A DNA stretch of 64,000 nucleotides from Hemileia vastatrix (Eukaryota; Basidiomycota; Pucciniomycetes; Pucciniales; Zaghouaniaceae), in the NCBI GenBank assembly GCA_030280995.1, contig JASXTE010000001.1:31801700-31865699 (forward strand), in the 5' to 3' direction. The notes below the pieces were generated by a model, which was not told where the DNA came from, searched no databases, and worked only from the letters and a program-made list of their open reading frames with translations. The position numbers were made by a program, and so were the translations under genes. This document shows positions 21,316 through 51,069 of the stretch, piece by piece. Each line of letters begins with the position of its first letter. Positions within the stretch are counted from its first letter, which is position 1.

Positions 21316-21956
21316 ACAAGAATGTGAAAGTAATTGTTTCCACCTTGAGCAGGTTTCTGGCTCAAAGGAATAGCAGTACCATCAAAAAAACCAATACATC
21401 CTGGGAAGCCCTCTGCTTGCATAACCTGAGATGATTCAAGTCGCTCTTCTTTTGTTGGCCAGGTGAGAAGTTGAGATTACAAGAAGTTTATGGCAGTGAT
21501 ACATTGTTTGGTATAAGTGTTAACTGAACCATACCCTAAATCAAAGACATTTTCTAAACGTTTCAAAGCGGCTCCATTACCATTTGAACCCAAATGACAT
21601 AGTGTGATGGCCAATTGAATTGAAGGATGTTGTTGTTCTTTTTGAGAATTATTGTGAAATATGGGATGATCCTGAATAAGCTCAAGCAATTTAAGGAAAG
21701 ATTCTTGAGAAGTCCTGAACAGCTGTCTAAAACTGGGTGTAGATAGTTTAAGAAGTGTTTGGATGGTGTACTTGGGGGTATGAGGTACTTGAGGCTTTCT
21801 GGGAAGAAGGTAATGTTTCGTGGCCATTTTTGATAAAAAGACAAAATCTTCTTCTAGATCAGAATCAGAATCGCAATCAGAGTCCAAGAGCAGTTCAAGA
21901 GCCATAAAAGTCATTGCTTTATGTAATTTATCACGATTTGAAAGTGAGATTGGCAT
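21316..21956 (-). pseudogene. Harbinger-like transposase (DDE_Tnp_4 type), truncated by element A
   Basis: The ATG is at 21956. The protein has an acidic N-terminal segment, a helix-rich middle with a DLGYGSVNTYT helix-turn-helix-like stretch, then an in-frame TAA at 21477-21479. The frame continues into GFPGCIGFFDGT, which resembles the first catalytic Asp region of PIF/Harbinger (HARBI1-like) transposases. H2 has GFVDGT there. The same stop is present in H2, so it predates their spread. The gene ends where element A inserted, and the other catalytic residues are missing. A single-exon start is assumed. Confidence 0.7.
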
Positions 21957-22262
21957 AACTCTTATATGATATGATATGAAGATGTAAGTGATGTACGATG
22001 TTTTGAGTTATGAAGTGTTATGCTGCCGAGTGCTGCGTATGAATGGGATGATGCTAAAAATCAGTGAAATGGGACTTGATGGTGAAATCAGCACTTTTGG
22101 TTGAGAAAGTGCGGATTTGAGTGAAATAAGTGACTTATTTCATTTTGAAATCCACCAGTATTGGGGCTAGTGTGTTTTGGAAATCCGCACTTATTTAAGT
22201 GCGGATTTGGTCAAATTTAAGTGCGGATTTGTAAGTGCGTATTTGCCAGAACTGACACCCCC
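21316..22262 (-). mobile_element. PIF/Harbinger-like DNA transposon H1, right part
   Basis: The fragment carries the 5' part of a transposase gene and a terminal inverted repeat ending at 22262 (outermost bases, read inward: GGGGGTGTCAGTTCTGGCAA). Copies of AAATCCGCACTTA lie inside the end, as transposase-binding subterminal repeats often do. It is nearly identical, inverted, to 38450-39395. Element A cut it at 21315/21316; the rest is off the left edge. Confidence 0.8.
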
Positions 22263-38480: not shown

Positions 38481-38755
38481 CAAATCCTCACTTAAATTTG
38501 ACCAAATCCGCACTTAAATAAGTGCGGATTTCCAAAACACACTAGCCCCAATACTGGTGGATTTCAAAATAAAATAAGTCACTTATTTCACTCAAATACG
38601 CACTTTCTCAACCAAAAGTGCTGATTTCACCATCAAGTCCCATTTCACTGATTTTTAGCATCATCCCATTCATACGCAGCACTCGGCAGCATAACACTTC
38701 ATAACTCAAAACATCGTACATCACTTACATCTTCATATCATATCATATAAGAGTT

Positions 38756-39395
38756 ATGCCAATCTCACTTTCAAATCGTGATAAATTACATAAAGCAATG
38801 ACTTTTATGGCTCTTGAACTGCTCTTGGACTCTGATTGCGATTCTGATTCTGATCTAGAAGAAGATTTTGTCTTTTTATCAAAAATGGCCACGAAACGTT
38901 ACCTTCTTCCCAGAAAGCCTCAAGTACCTCATACCCCCAAGTACACCATCCAAACACTTCTTAAACTATCTACACCCAGTTTTAGACAGCTGTTCAGGAC
39001 TTCTCAAGAATCTTTCCTTAAATTGCTTGAGCTTATTCAGGATCATCCCATATTTCACAATAATTCTCAAAAAGAACAACAACATCCTTCAATTCAATTG
39101 GCCATCACACTATGTCATTTGGGTTCAAATGGTAATGGAGCCGCTTTGAAACGTTTAGAAAATGTCTTTGATTTAGGGTATGGTTCAGTTAACACTTATA
39201 CCAAACAATGTATCACTGCCATAAACTCCTTGTAATCTCAACTTCTCACCTGGCCAACAAAAGAAGAGCGACTTGAATCATCTCAGGTTATGCAAGCAGA
39301 GGGCTTCCCAGGATGTATTGGTTTTGTTGATGGTACTGCTATTCCTTTGAGCCAGAAACCTGCTCAAGGTGGAAAAAATTACTTTCACATTCTCG
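38756..39395 (+). pseudogene. Harbinger-like transposase of H2, 5' part
   Basis: The ATG at 38756 starts 159 codons to TAA at 39233-39235. The same frame then continues with LTWPTKEERLESSQ and GFPGCIGFVDGTAIPL, the first catalytic Asp region of DDE_Tnp_4 transposases. Similarity to H1 runs to about 39395, which is also where H1 is cut. After that I see no recognisable transposase sequence, so the later catalytic residues are not found. The protein starts with an acidic Asp/Ser-rich patch. Sharing the stop with H1 means the family was already mobilised in trans or tolerated the stop. Confidence 0.7.
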
Positions 39396-41348: not shown

Positions 41349-42488
41349 TGTCAGCCTGTATATCTCCAGGACTGAGTAAAAATTGATTATAAGTTATTTT
41401 AAACACATGAACTATACATGGGAACAATAAATAAGAGTACACAAATAGTATACATAAGTAAAATTATGATAATACACAAAAAATGCCATTATAACACCTT
41501 ATATACACGCATATATCCACCTTTTATAAGTCTTATGTACTAAATATTAAATTGGAGTATGTTAGGGTAATCTTAAGAACCTTAAGTATAAGGCTACATA
41601 ATTTTTAAGTACACTTAAAGCTGTTATATTCATTGTTTTCTGCAAAAAACAAGAAATGCGCTTTATTTCACTTAAAAGTTGACTATATGCGCTATAAAAT
41701 TGAGAATATCAAAATTGCGCTTTGACAGATCAATTGGGCTCAATTAGAACTATTGATTTGGCTATTTAAATGCATAAAAATAACATTTTTCAAATTTGGT
41801 GTTTTTTATGCCAGAAATGGCTTCTGTGTACTGGCCACATACTGCCTGCTTTTTTCCCGTGTGAATAGCTTCATTTTTAGCAAAGTTAGCCTTTTCACAC
41901 TATAATTACCCCACATTCTACGCCCACTGTGGAGAAACACACTAAAATAGGCGACAGGCGCTTATTTAGTGTCCTAGCTTAATTAATAATGCATTGACCT
42001 TGTTTATATGCACTAATTTCATTAATAACCTCACTCTTGGCACTTTATTTCATCACCACGCTTAAATTCGCCTAATTTTAGTCAAAGATTTACCCGTGCA
42101 AGCGCCTGCCAAGAACTGCATGTAGTTACCCCACATCTCACGCTCTTTTTTTAAGTTTTTGGGTGGTTTCTCAGTCAATTTTGGTTATTTTTGAATGGGA
42201 ATTTCACGTAGTATAATGTCAGGATTAGCCCCATTATTTCTACAGTAAATCCCCCTTATTATTAAGCTATTATTAACCTTAAAAAGTCCCCTTTAGTTTT
42301 TTATATCATTGTTTTATATGCATATACTCTCTTTTTGTCTTTTTCTTTAATTTTGATGGATCTCCCTTATTATTACAGTATTTTGGCGGTTGTTACTTGT
42401 CTAATTATGTCATGGGTCACTAGGGATGTTGATGGGAAGGTCTATTAGTTGTTTTGAGGCGTCATTAACTGTGTATTGGGTGGTATAT
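41349..42488 (+). repeat. 5' LTR of C, left part
   Basis: It matches 58070-59209 of the 3' LTR. It is interrupted by E at the TATAT target (42484-42488) and resumes at 51070. Confidence 0.95.
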
Positions 42489-43262
42489 TGTCACCGGACG
42501 ACCTATGCACAAGGTCGAGGATGTTCCTGAAAGTGAGATGAGGGATTTAGAAACTTCTTCGAAGCACAGAGGAATGATTCGAGGAAATGATTCAAAGGTC
42601 ACTCAAAGTAATAGCTACAGGTTCGAGGTTTGTTCAAGAAGAATTATAGACTAGTTTCAGAGGTAATAGTAATTCTTAAAATCTCATGAAGGGTTGGAAA
42701 CTCAATAATCAAAGATTTAGGATTTAGAAATGAATATTGAGAAAATAAGAGAAAGATACAATAACAATGATTTTAACTTTTTAAAGATTTACCACTATTA
42801 ATGTAAATACAATTTTATAATTTAATTCTAAGGAATATCGAACCAAATACCCAACCCCTTTTATATCCTTTGTTCCTCCTCGCATTGACCTCCCTTCCAT
42901 TGCACCATTCCCATTCCATTGACCATTACTAACATACACTAAGACCTTCTTCGCTAAATATCCGTCCATGCTCAATTTACCCCTTTTTAATTAATTAACA
43001 AAACTTTAATAAAAACTACTACTGTACTATTTCGTTGAACCTAGCGCTGTGCGTCACTTATTGAAAAGGACTAATGTACCCTATTGGGAGATTGACTAAT
43101 TTAGATTTAGAGTTTAGGCTAGTGCAGTTAAATAGTAAGTACACAAAGGAAAATCGCAGTTGCTATGGAGAATTGCTTTCTGCGCTTCGAGTATAGATTT
43201 AGGACTCGATATTATTGATTTAATGAGTTGATTTCGCCTCGAGTGTCACGTGGCGCGTGACA
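42489..43262 (-). repeat. 3' LTR of E
   Basis: 774 bp. Its right edge is a near-palindrome (GTCACGTGGCGCGTGAC, 43244-43260) containing CACGTG. It is the 3' LTR with respect to gag-pol. Confidence 0.93.
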
Positions 43263-43272
43263 GATGCCCGGG

Positions 43273-43280
43273 TATAAAAA
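43273..43280 (+). promoter_or_regulatory. TATA box for the antisense gene of E
   Basis: TATAAAAA lies 10 bp inside the LTR edge and about 100 bp before the ATG at 43375. That spacing suits a fungal core promoter. It points in the antisense direction. Confidence 0.6.
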
Positions 43281-43374
43281 ATTGCGAGCTCCGTTGAGCT
43301 TGAGCCATCTTCCCACACTAGTTTCCCTTTTTCTAATAAATTTTTCCCTCACTTCTTAATTACTTATTTTTATA

Positions 43375-44327
43375 ATGAACTGCCCCACTCCCACACCTAC
43401 GCCTCCACACCCTAAAGCAGATGGGGGAATGATCACACGAAAGTTTTCACAGACTTGCACGGCTTGTGAAAGCATGGAGTATTTCTGTGTCAAAAGTACG
43501 GCGACCCAAGGCCCTCGCCAGAAATGTGAGTTTTGCCGTTGGCGGCGAGTGGCGTGTGATGCGTTGACGAAGAACGCGGAAATCGAAAAGCGATTTACCA
43601 AGACTAAGTTTTGGGTAATTCCTAAAACCAAAGAGGTGGTTGAAGACATTTGGGATGTCTTGATTGAAGATGAACAATCGGTGGGGGAAAATGATAAGGA
43701 ATTAAACAACAAGATCTCAACCTGGGTAACCCAGGCCACGAGTTCGAAGCGAGGTGTCAAGGAAGAGGTCGACGAGTTGGTGGAGGAGGATGAAGATGAA
43801 GTCCCTGTTCCAGGGCGGGCACCCAAGAAACGATGGGTGGTCATTGAGGACGATGAGGAAGAGAGAGAGGTAGAGGTCGAAGTGGCGCCAAGGTTATTTC
43901 TAGAGCCTGACCCCATCTTCGAGGTAAGTTTTATTTGTTTATTTTAGGGATGATGTTACTGATGAGTTTTTTGTTTTAGACATCGAATAACCTTGAAGAG
44001 CCGATTGCGGAGTTTGCGTCGGTTATACCAACTGAGGCAAACCCTCCGGCCCCAGAAGTAATTGAAGAACCTGAAGACACCCTGGACCAGGTGTGGTCGA
44101 AGAAACCCTGTCAAGGTCGACGAGTAAGGTTCGTGGAAGAATTATGTGGGGAGGTCGACACAATTATTGACGCGGCTTCCTTCGACATGGCAGAGGAGCT
44201 CTTGGAGATGGGAGAGGTGGTTCCGGTAGGAGAGGAGGAGGTATTTGAGAAATGCAGGAAGGAGATAAGGGTAGTTTTGGAGAAAATGAAAAGATTGGTT
44301 CGAGAGAAATTAAAAGAAAAGATTTGA
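43375..44327 (+). CDS. Antisense gene of E: zinc-cluster protein with acidic region, two exons
   Basis: Exon 1 runs 43375-43923, a 56-bp intron 43924-43979 (GTAAGT...TTTTAG), and exon 2 43980-44327. Splicing joins the two frames and gives 298 residues. The six-cysteine pattern CX2CX6CX12CX2CX6C lies at residues 28, 31, 38, 51, 54 and 61, with RWRR in the second half-cluster. Strongly acidic stretches follow (around residues 125-175), then a C-terminal helical, charged segment. The spacing equals that of antisense gene 1 of A, although E and A are different Ty3/gypsy lineages. Placement is also the same: antisense, between pol and the 3' LTR. It is open while gag-pol of the same element has eight stops. 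A DNA-binding regulator is inference. Confidence 0.74.
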
Positions 44328-44548
44328 AATGAAAAGGAGATGTAAAGAAGTAGAAAAAATTTGTATTTTAGTTTTATTTTATTTTTATTTTATTTATTTT
44401 TTTATTGTAGGTGAATGTTATTAATTTTATAAGATTTGAGAGAGAGAGAAAAAGAAAAAAAAGAAGTTTTAAATAAAAAATTTTAGAATTTGAAAGAAGA
44501 AATTTAAAGAAAGGAAAAAAGGTTGTTTAATTGAAGGAAGTTTTAATG

Positions 44549-44582
<34 letters not shown>

Positions 44583-44684
44583 AAGGAAATTTTTATGTAA
44601 GAAAAGAAAGAGAACAAAAAAGTAACGGTTTTGTGATTGAGATGAGTTTGTTAAATTGAGGATTTAATGAAAGAAAAATATATG

Positions 44685-44715
<31 letters not shown>

Positions 44716-45384
44716 AATTTTTAGTTGAAAAGAGAGGAAGAAGAAAGAAAAGAAAAAAACAGAATTTGGAATTTAAGAGAATTTGAAAAGAAGAATTATC
44801 TGTTTCAAAGAATTATTATAGGGATATTTAGAGGTTGAAGTTAAGTTCGAGGAAATGGTCGTGTCGTACAAGATTTGATGATTCGAAGGAAAGAAAGTTT
44901 TTAAAAGAGAAAATAAATTTGTGGAATAGAAATTTTTTGAAGAGAATTTTAAATTTAAGAAATGAATGTATTTAAAGAATTGAAAAAGAAAAGAAAGAAA
45001 ATATTTAGAGAGACTTAAGAGTTTTTTATTTTATTTTATTATTTATGTTTGTTCTATTTATTTTATTTTATTTTATTATTTATATTTATTCTATTTATTT
45101 TATTTTTATTTTATTTTATTTTATTTTATTTTATTTTATTTTATTTCATTTTATTTTATTTTATTTTATTTTATTTTATTTTATTTTATTTTATTTTATT
45201 TTATTTTATTTTATTTTAATTTTAATTTTGATTTTATTTTTAGTTGGTTTTGCAAGAAATTTTATAGAAGGAGAAGAAAGAAAAAAGAAGAGAGAAAAAA
45301 GAAAACAAGGCTAAGAAATTTAAGAGGTGTTTTAGATTTTAAAGAAAGAAAGAAAAAGAAAAGAAAATTTTAAATAAAGAAATT
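44328..45384. repeat. Low-complexity region of E: poly-T runs and a TTTTA microsatellite
   Basis: Purine-rich and AT-rich sequence with T-runs at about 44549-44575 and 44683-44711 and an ATTTT/TTTTA microsatellite at about 45024-45225. No gene is seen; the open frame over the microsatellite is an artefact of the repeat. Confidence 0.8.
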
Positions 45385-48300
45385 TTAAGGTTTTGGTTTT
45401 AAAGGATATTTCAAATGAAAAGATTTTAGGAGTTCAGGAGCATTAGAAACATTGATGGCTGGTTCCCAGGATGTTTTGTCTGAGTCATTGAGGAAGCCTT
45501 CCCATTCCACGAGGTATTGAAGTTTCCCCTTGCGTATTCTTGAATCAAGGATACGACTTACTTCCCACTCTAGATGATCTTCTACTTCGACCGGTTCCGG
45601 AGGGGGTTGGTTCTTGCCCGGGTATATTTCTCGAGCCAGTTCCAGGAGAGATACATGGAAAACAGGGTGAATCGCCTGCCATTCAGGAGGTAACTTGAAT
45701 CGAAATGCAGTTTTAGAGACTTCAGAGTCGATTTCGAATGGTCCCAAGCGCTTGTCAGCCAGTTTCTTTGATGTTCTTGTTGTTCTAATGTTTCGTGTGT
45801 CGAGCCATACTTTGTCGCCTGGTTTAAAGGAAGGAGCAGATTGTCGATGTTTATCGGCCTGTTCCTTGTATCTTCCAATCGCTGATTCCATGTTTGTTTT
45901 AAGTTCTTCTTGGAGTCTTGATATAGTTCGAAGATAATGTTCCGCAGGATGATTAGTTCCTACATGGATTGAGTTGAATCGAGGATGTCGTCCATAAATG
46001 GTTTTGAAGGGAGATTTTCGTGTCGAAGAATGAGTTGAGTTATTATAAGCAAATTCGACCAATGGTAACCATGTGGTCCAATCGTCTTGTTGGTAACTGA
46101 CATACATTTGAAGATATTGCTTGAGGATTTGGTTAACTCTTTCTGTTTGACCATCGGTTTCAGGGTGATAGGCCGTGGAGAGATTCCTCGTGATATTGAG
46201 TTGTCGACACAGTTGGGTCCAGAATGTGGATACAAACAATGAGCCTCTATCTGAAATAATATCATTTGGTAAGCCGTGTTTAGAAAATACATATTCTAGA
46301 AACAATTTTGACAAATCTTCTGCTGTAGCAGTAGTAGTGGTTTTAATAAAAATAGACATTTTTGAAAATCTATCTACTATTACTAATATAGCATCAAAAT
46401 CATTAGACATATGAAGTTGAGAAATGAAATCCATCGATAAAGATTCCTAAGGTTTAGAGGGAATAGGAAGTGGTTGAAGCAACCCATGCTTCCGGTGACG
46501 GGGAGCCTTATTCCTATTACATTCGTAACAAGCTTTTATATAGGCCTTGATTTCCCTGGTCATACATGGCCAGAAGAAATCCCTTGCTATTAACTGGTAG
46601 GTTTTATCAACCCCAAAATGACCAGCTAATGGAGGATCATGTCAACTGTTGAAAATCCATAATTTTATCTCATTGTTGTCGGGTATGACTACTCTACCTT
46701 CAAAGACTAATAGACCTGATTCAATACTAAATCTTTTGGCCCCTTGCTTTGAGAGTATTTTGTCTTTTAACCCTAAACAATAATCGTCCTTCGACTGAGC
46801 TTCGAGGATGTTGGATAGTGGATTTTGAAAAGATTGAATTGTCATCGAATTAAGTTGATGAGTTGTTAACATTGATTCGTTGAAGATTGATTGCACATTT
46901 GCTGGTTTCTTGTCAGCAAATGGGTCCCCCCGCTGTGGGTAAACGTCGTCCCGACGTGACAAGATATCTGGGACAATGCAGTTTTTTCCTGGGCGATAGG
47001 AAATAGAGAAAGAAAATTCAGACAAGAATTCAGCCCACCTGGCTTGATGCCTGGTTAACACTTTAGAAGAAATGAAGTATTTTAAAGCATTATGATCTGT
47101 TAAAATTTGAAAAGGACTATCTAGGCTGAGAAGAAAAGAATGCCATTTTTTAAGACAATGGATAATAGCTAAAAGCTCTTTGTCATGAATTTCATAATTT
47201 AATTCTGCGGCTATGAGTTTGTGTGACTCAAAAGCAACAGGATGAAACAAATTTGTTTCAGGATTTAATTGGGAGATGACCCCTGCAATAGCATAATCGC
47301 TCGCATCTGTCTCAACTATTGTCGAGGCAGAAGGATCAAAATGTCAAAGAATTGGGGCTGTGGTGAACACCGTTTTTAGTGCTTTGAATTCCTTTCGTGC
47401 TGTAGAAGTAAAAACAAAAGGAATATCTTTTCTAAGAAGAGAAGTAAGATTGGAAATAGTTTTAGAGTAATCTTTAATAAATCTTCTATAGAAGTTTGCA
47501 AAACCCAAAAATCCTTGGAGTGATTTAATGTTTTTGGGCTCAGGCCATTCCAGGATTTTCTGGACTTTTTTGTCATCCATGACTAAACCATCAGTGGACA
47601 ACGTAAAACCCAAAAAATAAATTGATTTGAGGCGGAATTCGCATTTATTATGCTTGGCGTAGAGACCATGATCTCGAAGACAATTTAGGACCTGTCGAAC
47701 ATGATGAATATGTTTATCCAGTGTTTTCGAGAATATTAAAATATCATCTAAATAGACGACTACAAATTGTTCAACAACATCTTGAAAGATATCATTAACA
47801 AAAGTTTGAAAAGTTGAAGGTGCGTTACATAATCCAAAAGGCATAACTAAATATTCAAAACTACCAAATCTAGTGCGCATTGCAGTCAGTGGTTCATGAC
47901 CTTCCCCAATGCGAATAAGATTGTAAGCGCCTCTAAGATCAATTTTAGAAAAGAAATTAGCACCATTGAAAAGGGTAAGAAGTAATGACATACGAGGAAC
48001 AGGATATGCATTCTTCTTTGTGACTGTGTTGAGCTTTCTATAGTCAACACACAACCTAAGACTACCATCCTTCTTTTTTACAAAGAGGACAGGGGAGCCG
48101 GTTGGAGATTTACTGGCTCTGATGAAACCTTTGGCTACATTCTCTGCAATGTAGTCTCGAAGAACTTGAGATTCGTCCTTCGATAAAGAATAGACAGGAC
48201 CTGCTGGAGGTACTGGGCCTATTAACTCTATTTGATGATCGTAGGGTCAATGAGGTGGTAACTTATCGGCCTTACAGATTGAGAAAACATCGAGGAAATA

Positions 48301-49040
48301 ATGGTAGATTTCCGGTAGTGTTGATTTAATGGCTTCAACGTTGATTTGGTCCTCCTCTTCATCTTCGAGAGAATCTGTCGAGGGGATACCTGTATTGAGA
48401 GAGCAGAATTCGATTACTTCGAGGCAATTTAAATCCTCTTCAAGTGAAGTCATCGAGCTAGAAGGGTTAGCCAATTGCTCATTTAAAGAAGGATCAGATG
48501 CTTGCAAGTCATCTGGCAGAGACTTGTCCTCTAGCAGGACGTTGTCAGGCGGGTTGTTTAACTCCCTATTGACCTGCATTGAAGAATCAGAAATATACTT
48601 AGAGCGTGGGGTGATCAATCCCCTAGTCCAATCAATTTCGGGATTCCAATGCGTTAAAAATTCATGGCCAAGAATGGTATCGTCCATCCTTGGGGCGTCC
48701 AAGACTGATAATTCCCACTCAAAGGGGGGAAAGTTTGGAAAGTTGAAAACCCATAAAACTTTCTTACTTACCCAATATTTGGGTTCCTCTGATTCGACCA
48801 AATAGATTGGAGTTCGATCGATATCTGTAAATGTTATTTGAAGCTTCTCGGCAAAAGATAAACTAACAAAAGAAATTGAAGCTCCTGAGTCTATAAGAAA
48901 ACTGAAGGGGATATCCTCCTTAAAAAGAATGAATCTCAAGCGGTTTAAGGCAACTCCAGTCCTTAAGACATGGAGGTTCTGTGCACTGGGAGAGATAAGA
49001 TAGTTTGCTTTGCACACAAGTAAACTATCTACTAGTTTTT
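45385..49040 (-). pseudogene. Element E pol: protease, RT, RNase H, integrase, chromodomain; four stops
   Basis: One minus-strand frame, interrupted by TGA at 48247-48249, 47344-47346 and 46642-46644 and by TAG at 46447-46449. The protease has LIDSGAS near 48890 and the RT has the VVYLDDI box near 47760. RNase H runs around ETDASDYA (47315) to TDHNALK. The integrase has an HHCC finger (CYECNRN, about 46520), MDF (46430), SDRG (about 46250) and a Glu at TERVNQ (46140). The C-terminal chromodomain (VSRILDSRIRKG ... LVEWEGF ... SWEPA) lies near 45560-45450. All three TGA stops fall where related proteins commonly have Arg, consistent with CGA to TGA change. Confidence 0.92.
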
Positions 49041-50219
49041 TGACCTCGAACTAGTACCTTCTCTTTCCTTCAACTTTACACAGTCTTCCAACTTGTTCTT
49101 ACCCCCACAATACATACATAACCCATTATCTGCTCGTCTTTTCCTCTCAGCTTCTTTAAGTTCCCCTTTAGGATCCAGTACTTTGCTGATATTGCCTGGG
49201 GTTGAGCCTTTTGGTCAAGGTTTATCCTTTCCCTTATTGGGTTTGGATTGAGTCGAGGAGGATTGATTTGGTCGTGGGTGTGAAGAAGGTCCCAATTTAA
49301 AATTTAGGCCTTGAGATTTGTTGGCATATTGACGATGTTGAAGTCCTCCTTGATAAACGCCGTCAAGTTCGAGGGTTCAATCCATTAAATCCGTTAAAGT
49401 AGTCATCTTCTGACCGTGAAGATTTAATTGATCTAGAATCCTCGAAGGAAGCCCTTTCTTGAAATGATACTTAAGGGCAGCATCATTCCAACCTACTTGA
49501 GTTTGAAGTGCTCTGAAGTTCGAGATATATTCAGAGGCTTCACCATTATCACTCATGCAAAGAAAATCAAGTTCAATTTCGGCGTTGTCCGTTTCATTAG
49601 GGTCCCCAAACAACATAAAAAGTTGGTCTTCGAACTTTTCCCAATTATTGATAAGTAAGTGGGTTTCTGTCAAAGAAAGCATGAGTAGATAAGGTTCGAA
49701 CCATCTTTCTGCTTTCCCGGCTAGGAATGAAGAAGCTTAAACAACCTTTGATCGGTCACTGTTAAAGGTTCGAGGGTCATTATGGAAAAGTAGCTTGCAG
49801 GTTTGCAAGAAGGGTCACAATCTGTCGGGGTGATCTCCGTCGAATTTGTCAGGAGATTTCATAGAAGGAAATTTGAACTTAGATCCCTCTGAAGACGTTG
49901 GATGTGACAGGGCATTCATGAAAAGTCTCATGAAATCTTCCAGAGAGTTAGATGGTCCAGGTTCTGAGGATTGGCCAGCAGGGTGATTGGCAGGGACGGA
50001 TGGTGCCTTGTGCATTGTATCCTCTCCTTCTTCTTCGTCACTAGAATCCTCAAAATCTTGTGGGATGTCTTCTACAGATTGAACTGAATGTTGCCGTTCC
50101 CTAAGGTTGAGTGGTTCCAAAGAGTGAGTGCGAGAAACAGACCTTGTGGCTGTTGGCCTGCCTCTAGCGCGAGCTCTAGTAGTAGCGCCCGTAGGAGGAG
50201 TGCGTTGAACAGGTGCCAT
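49041..50219 (-). pseudogene. Element E gag, four in-frame stops
   Basis: The ATG is at 50219. The Arg/Ala-rich N-terminus is followed by an acidic patch (SSDEEEGED) and KSPDKFDGD. TGA at 49815, TAA at 49737, TGA at 49377 and TGA at 49215 interrupt the frame. The segment 49682-49377 is the typical chromoviral Gag core (LINNWEKFEDQL, YISNFRALQTQ). Near 49100 a CX2C-type knuckle (CMYCGGKNKLEDC) is one residue short and lacks the His, and the frame changes to that of pol nearby. That may be a single deletion in the knuckle. Confidence 0.87.
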
Positions 50220-50290
50220 TTAAAATTTTAGAAACACCTAAAAGGACGTAGTAGTGCAAAGAATGAGAACTACGGAGAATTAAATTATAC

Positions 50291-51064
50291 TTTCACCGGA
50301 TGACCTACGCACAAGGTCGAGGATGTTCCTGAAAGTGAGATGAGGGATTTAGAAACTTCTTCAAAGCACAGAGGAATGATTCGAGGAAATGATTCGAAGG
50401 TCACTCAAAGTAATAGCTACAGGTTTGAGGTTCGTCCGAGAAGAATTATAGACTAGTTTCAGAGGTAATAGTAACTCTTAAAATCTCACGAAGGGTTGGA
50501 AACTCAATAATCAAAGATTTAGGATTTAGAAATGAATATTGAGAAAATAAGAGAAAGATACAATAACAATGATTTTAACTTTTTAAAGATTTACCACTAT
50601 TAATGTAAATACCATTTTATAATTTAATTATAAGGAATATCGAACCAAATACCCAACCCCTTTTATATCCTTTGTTCCTCCTCGCATTGAACTCCCTTCC
50701 ATCACACCATTCCAATTCCATTGACCATTACTAACATACACTTAGACCTTCTTCGCTAAATATATGTCCATGCTCAATTTACCCCTTTTTAATTAATTAA
50801 CAAAACTTTAATAAAAACTACTACTGTACTATTTTGTTGAACCTAGCGCTGTGCGTCGCTTATTGAAAAGGACTAATGTACCCTATTGGGAGATTGACTA
50901 ATTTAGATTTAGAGTTTAGGCTAGCGCAGTTAAATAGTAAGTACACAAAGGAAAATCGCAGTTGCTATGGAGAATTGCTTTCTGCGCTTCGAGTATAGAT
51001 TTAGGACTTGATATTATTGATTTAATGAGTTGATTTCGTCTCGAGTGTCACATGGCACGTGACA
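50291..51064 (-). repeat. 5' LTR of E
   Basis: 774 bp, equal in length to 42489-43262. Its inner edge begins TTTCACC where the other copy has TGTCACC. Between it and the gag ATG (50220-50290) I see no clear tRNA-type primer-binding site. Confidence 0.93.
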
Positions 51065-51069
51065 TATAT

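Follow-up and report, generated by a model that had tools for sequence, protein, structure and literature searches.

The antisense gene carried by element E, a Ty3/gypsy chromovirus in the window (the whole 64 kb stretch of DNA analysed here), is a genuine, selected accessory gene of a large element family. The gene occupies positions 43375-44327 of the plus strand, lies wholly within E on the strand opposite to gag and pol, between pol and the 3' LTR, and encodes 298 amino acids. The decisive evidence that it is real and selected is the selection detected across 37 genomic copies. Its product comprises an N-terminal six-cysteine cluster, an acidic middle and a basic C terminus, which is probably helical. 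Judged by sequence, the cluster resembles a GAL4-type Zn2Cys6 domain with its two halves swapped; the resemblance is clear for the antisense genes of a second element, A, but only suggestive for E. E therefore probably carries its own gene regulator.

Element E and the layout of its antisense gene

The features of E are as follows.

42484-42488 and 51065-51069, strand not applicable: target-site duplication (TSD) TATAT of E, two copies
42489-51064, minus strand: element E, a degenerate copy of a Ty3/gypsy chromovirus, recognized by its LTR pair and TSD, Pfam domains and eight stops
42489-43262, minus strand: 3' LTR of E, 774 bp
43263-43374, plus strand: gap between the LTR and the ATG, with a TATA box at 43273
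43375-43923, plus strand: exon 1 of the antisense gene, 183 codons, ATG at 43375
43456-43557, plus strand: six-cysteine cluster CX2CX6CX12CX2CX6C, Zn2Cys6-like, with halves apparently swapped
43924-43979, plus strand: intron, 56 bp, GT-AG
43980-44327, plus strand: exon 2, 115 codons and a stop at 44327
44328-45384, strand not applicable: spacer between the gene and pol, low-complexity purine/poly-T
45385-49050, minus strand: pol frame, from the protease region to the integrase and chromodomain, with four in-frame stops
49054-50219, minus strand: gag frame, with four in-frame stops
50291-51064, minus strand: 5' LTR of E, 774 bp, with 27 differences from the 3' LTR

The initial annotation described an antisense two-exon gene between pol and the 3' LTR of E, and this gene is indeed present inside an LTR pair flanked on both sides by the TSD. 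The TATA box, the canonical intron and the 298-residue frame attributed to it are all seen in the sequence, as are the eight stops reported for gag-pol (four in each frame). The TATA sequence, TATAAAAA, starts ten bases beyond the LTR, and a TATA sequence adjoins the LTR in 20/20 fetched copies of E. Aspartate and glutamate account for 26% of residues 64-298. At 43255-43281 the 3' LTR lacks a bordering polypurine tract, and the antisense TATA region stands there in 20/20 copies; the same place beside the 3' LTR of element A reads GGAGGGAGGA. Between the gene and pol, a TTTTA-type repeat array is visible by eye at 45025-45225, with long poly-T runs close by.

E, which is inserted into an LTR of another element, C, possesses the Ty3/gypsy reverse transcriptase (RT) and the integrase with a C-terminal chromodomain that characterize chromoviruses (Pfam RVT_1, 1.1e-35; rve, 6.4e-11; Chromo, 2.1e-12). 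Its separation in lineage from A, proposed earlier, is upheld: the Pfam scan of A pol returned no Chromo among its matches, and the RT identity between E and A is 30%. In a protein search with the E integrase, the nearest sequences were unnamed metagenome proteins (67%), and among the 120 of 4344 matches listed all of the organism-named rows were Austropuccinia psidii (48-59%), a rust whose transposon-filled genome is described as CpG-depleted (PMC8063080); the host of E may be a rust too. Elsewhere in the window, three elements (9856/9902, 51987/52069 and 62262/62356) have, at the start of gag, an overlapping second ORF that is 161-194 codons long. Two ORF fragments, at 21477-22007 (minus strand) and 38705-39235 (plus strand), share 98.9% DNA identity and are presumably transposase-like, of the HARBI type.

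Copies of the gene and selection on it

The assembly searched comprises 747.6 Mb in 791 contigs. With the gene DNA as the query, 40 of 3956 candidates were scored, the window's own match at 100% and the rest at 93-97%. With the exon 1 protein as the query, 150 of 6890 candidates were scored; all were full length with 92-100% identity, and 135/150 had no stop, a sample biased by consisting of the best scorers. The E family has at least 150 scored copies, and perhaps thousands. Absence of the gene from other E copies had been named in advance as the finding that would count against it. The layout LTR-antisense gene-pol-gag-LTR was instead found in all 20 whole copies fetched (equal 5-bp TSDs in 17/20; median non-CpG LTR divergence 0.0098), and at 7/7 further loci an LTR lies on one side of the gene and pol on the other. 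All sampled copies were recovered by the gene query, so that gene-less copies of E would escape notice. Four gene copies at a spacing of about 7.67 kb occur at G000:C19:2616003-2639980, and a piece of the gene lies beyond the LTR at L067; both are probably a tandem array of E.

Selection was evaluated in the window copy, the 20 whole copies and 16 gene-only copies, three tandem copies being left out. Non-CpG variants present in at least three of these 37 copies comprise 20 synonymous and 9 nonsynonymous changes (pN/pS 0.11; 8, 1 and 20 at the three codon positions). For the same class, pN/pS is 4.16 and 2.58 in the two remaining forward frames of exon 1. When all non-CpG variants are included the ratio is 0.39, and many of these variants are private, hence probably post-insertion. 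In the 21 copies that allow comparison with gag and pol, the gene has a pN/pS of 0.08 in the shared non-CpG class, compared with 0.16 in pol and 0.02 in gag, and for all variants the three values are 0.36, 0.57 and 0.52, respectively; the selection on the antisense gene is therefore of the same order as that on gag and pol. Within the 34-codon cluster the counts (4 synonymous and 7 nonsynonymous, 37 copies) are too small to show selection. The ATG is kept in 37/37 copies and the GT-AG boundaries in 36/37; Cys38, Cys51 and Cys54 are kept in 37/37, Cys31 and Cys61 in 36/37 and Cys28 in 34/37.

Several other arguments carry less weight. The contrast between an intact gene and the eight stops of gag-pol, offered in the initial annotation, is not significant: 1.48 stops would be expected in the gene, and the probability of none is 0.23 by length and 0.15 by CGA codons, so that the intact ORF was rejected as proof. 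At least one in-frame stop is present in 21/37 gene copies and none in 16/37, indels set aside. On the same basis, 20 copies contain 14 in-frame stops in the gene (5960 codons), 28 in gag (7760) and 90 in pol (24420); 16 of the 30 stops in the 37 gene copies fall at CGA positions of the window copy. ORF length is marginal on its own, 195 codons being reached in 103/2000 simulations. Codon usage favours the claimed frame in exon 1 and a reverse frame in exon 2, and was likewise rejected as proof. The six-cysteine pattern CX2CX6C-(5-16)-CX2CX6-8C, on the other hand, exceeds chance: it occurs five times in the six frames of the window, every time in an antisense gene (once in E and twice in each of A genes 1 and 2), and in 0/60 simulated windows.

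The six-cysteine cluster in E and A

The cluster of E has the six-cysteine arrangement CX2CX6C...CX2CX6-8C of Zn2Cys6 domains (PF00172), and its spacing lies inside the usual range of the GAL4 type. As the initial annotation stated, the first antisense gene of A (gene 1) has the same spacing; in gene 2 the middle interval is X15. A profile of five clusters gave GAL4 as its best PDB match (E-value 0.043), with the second half of the profile on the first half of GAL4 and the first half on the second. Pfam Zn_clus was matched by 5/5 cluster pieces below the cut-off, the best stretch of each being in the swapped place. E itself scored 14.2 bits against a cut-off of 21, again swapped and not in the native order, whereas the GAL4 control was collinear with 48.3 bits. 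The five clusters come from three genes and therefore do not represent five independent cases.

The halves were also compared separately with those of GAL4, LAC9, PPR1 and PUT3; HAP1 was left out, as the spacing CX2CX6C is not present in its second half. The swapped order scored higher in 11/12 comparisons, and against shuffled sequences p was below 0.05 in 8/12 for the swapped order and in 0/12 for the native order, while canonical ordered pairs were collinear in 12/12. For E alone, the swapped order reached significance in two of four comparisons (p = 0.007 for PPR1, 0.037 for LAC9, 0.17 for GAL4 and 0.30 for PUT3), and against PUT3 the native order scored one point higher. In the profile test, swapped LAC9 and GAL4 obtained 24.7 and 19.5 bits versus 15.0 and 16.5 bits in native order, but doubled-half controls came close to the swapped values (LAC9 2-2, 20.3 bits; GAL4 1-1, 18.9 bits). 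The halves alone matched Zn_clus in just 2/5 pieces, which counts against a permutation; alternatively, the fold may be pseudo-symmetric, its basic residues having shifted from one half to the other. In PDB searches with single clusters, A gene 1 matched GAL4 at an E-value of 3.2, and no Zn2Cys6 chain was found with E or A gene 2. AlphaFold models were weak (mean pLDDT 51 and 68) and gave no PDB fold match. Pfam matches of E to TRAM and Death_3 were below the cut-off and were rejected. A binuclear zinc fold and DNA binding are predicted properties of the E cluster.

The two antisense genes of A resemble that of E in lying antisense beside the 3' LTR, in having two exons and an N-terminal six-cysteine cluster, and in showing signs of purifying selection. 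Between two copies of A, dN/dS is 0.30 for gene 1 (13 synonymous and 13 nonsynonymous changes; 0.86 in exon 2, from 4 changes) and 0.16-0.32 in three parts of gene 2; a value of 0.59 for A pol was discarded owing to a poor global alignment. Of the six frames, just the claimed one is free of stops in each of three pieces, although the mirror frame here too has low ratios. A differs from E in lacking a chromodomain, in having two antisense genes, in intron phase (1 in both A genes and 0 in E, from the coordinates) and in encoding proteins rich in serine, threonine and proline rather than acidic ones. The clusters of the two A genes are alike beyond the cysteines (p about 0.001), whereas that of E, the cysteines aside, resembles those of genes 1 and 2 no better than shuffles do (p about 0.19 and 0.53). 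The exchange between lineages envisaged earlier is therefore unsupported, at least as a recent event, and the intron phases also differ; the genes may stem from separate captures from a common source or from a very old shared origin. The suggestion of a shared, useful function loses its arguments from intactness and exchange, and retains the finding that two distantly related Gypsy lineages have a useful gene placed alike in antisense, with purifying selection in E and, from two copies only, in both A genes.

Possible roles of the gene and comparison with known systems

We regard it as reasonably probable that this resident accessory gene of the E family codes for a nuclear DNA-binding regulator that acts on the element's own LTR or promoter region. 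Transcription of the gene, opposite in direction to that of gag-pol, would start from a TATA promoter of its own next to the 3' LTR, and the transcript would be spliced once; the product, by virtue of its Zn2Cys6-type cluster with putatively swapped halves, would bind zinc and DNA in the nucleus, its target would be the LTR or promoter region of E, and it might control E transcription or counter silencing to the benefit of the element. The acidic middle and basic C-terminal end fit a dimerising activator. A scan of the E LTR revealed few CGG triplets and nothing striking, which counts against this reading.

An anti-silencing factor, which would bind E DNA as a shield against methylation or heterochromatin and not as a driver of transcription, is unlikely but a serious rival, since E has retained its CpGs: the observed/expected CpG ratio is 0.58-0.91 in the LTR, gene, pol and gag of E versus 0.08-0.12 in the tested stretches of A, B and C. 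The CpGs of E nevertheless decay, as its two LTRs differ at 15/29 CpG sites and at 12 of the 716 remaining positions, and A is CpG-poor despite having two such genes. Retention of CpG may reflect a recent invader or another methylation history. TCGA sites number 59 in E and 0-1 per tested stretch of A, B and C.

A little less likely still is that the protein serves E in some different way, for instance in packaging, in entry into the nucleus or in selecting integration sites, its zinc cluster then binding nucleic acid; the gene is fixed and selected as gag and pol are, but an antisense gene that stands apart and has a TATA box and an intron of its own would suit a regulator better than a structural partner.

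It is very improbable that the selected protein is instead encoded by the 195-codon mirror ORF at 43356-43943 on the minus strand, with the plus frame as its shadow. This ORF is open and shares third positions with the plus frame in exon 1, where its pN/pS values in four classes are 0.48, 0.32, 0.33 and 0.07; those of the plus frame (0.33, 0.22, 0.24 and 0.07) are lower in three classes and equal in the shared non-CpG class, and discordant sites are too few to tell the strands apart by substitutions (8 versus 6 in exon 1). The plus strand is favoured for two reasons: the six-cysteine pattern, the intron and the TATA box all lie on it, and in the window copy exon 2 has a stop in every reverse frame. 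Capture of a functionless host gene once, by the window copy only, can be dismissed for the sampled copies in view of the layout common to 20/20 whole copies, their independent TSDs and the selection on the gene, even though the 150 scored protein matches, all at least 92% identical, reached no host homologue outside the E family.

Returning to a regulator encoded by the element, a broader reading is tentative and somewhat doubtful: that two distant Gypsy lineages of one giant fungal genome, the E family being widespread, bear spliced antisense genes, kept by selection, whose product is a Zn2Cys6 regulator in circularly permuted form. This would be a new zinc-cluster topology, put to use by the elements as a transcription factor or an anti-silencing factor of their own. 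If this is true, LTR retrotransposons of at least two lineages in fungi bear their own opposite-strand DNA-binding regulators, as some plant elements seem to, and element expression control and escape from silencing become testable in transposon-swollen fungal genomes. Such genes would also be a reservoir from which new host transcription factors could come, and in the cluster a well-studied DNA-binding fold of fungi may have undergone circular permutation in nature.

Among 5.8 billion proteins, the E protein yielded 1541 candidates, none at an E-value of 0.001 or below at the sensitivity of the search; an alignment of five exon-1 sequences in the same kind of search yielded 2434, none at 10 or below. 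Viral contigs queried with the E integrase, exon 1 and the cluster alignment contained no relative. In chromovirus-like contigs from prokaryote assemblies an antisense cluster was present at 0/43 loci, a weak negative as just 18/43 had 900 bp downstream; one locus (L011) had a sense-strand cysteine-rich match. The literature, with subscription journals covered incompletely, yielded no fungal retrotransposon with a zinc-cluster gene in antisense and no permuted Zn2Cys6 domain.

Three known systems invite comparison. HBZ of HTLV-1 is a spliced bZIP gene. Like the gene of E it is antisense near the 3' LTR and acts as a nuclear regulator, a role that is proposed for E; it differs in encoding a bZIP protein rather than a zinc cluster and in belonging to a mammalian retrovirus, and no homology is claimed. 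Compared with GAL4-type Zn2Cys6 domains, the E cluster has six cysteines and a second half resembling the first half of GAL4, but its basic half comes second, its swapped-order match is weak and below the Pfam cut-off, and it is borne by a retrotransposon. A study of plant Ty3/gypsy elements (PMC11963269), in which HBZ is named, describes ORFs of the Retand lineage that stand in antisense orientation in the interval from pol to the 3' LTR, 97% of clusters having a TRP28 domain (PF04195) that is thought to bind DNA; Grande and RIRE2 are named alongside Retand, and a regulatory role is suggested. E shares with Retand, as described there, a family-wide antisense ORF in this position, probably DNA-binding, and the Retand-like architecture is seen in 20/20 whole copies of E, all found through the gene. 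E differs in being a fungal chromovirus, in having a six-cysteine cluster in place of TRP28 (PF04195 is absent from the Pfam matches of its protein, and its chromodomain places it outside the Retand lineage), in the intron and TATA box of its gene and in the selection measured on it. E and Retand thus share the same architecture with another protein, one whose zinc-cluster topology is possibly new.
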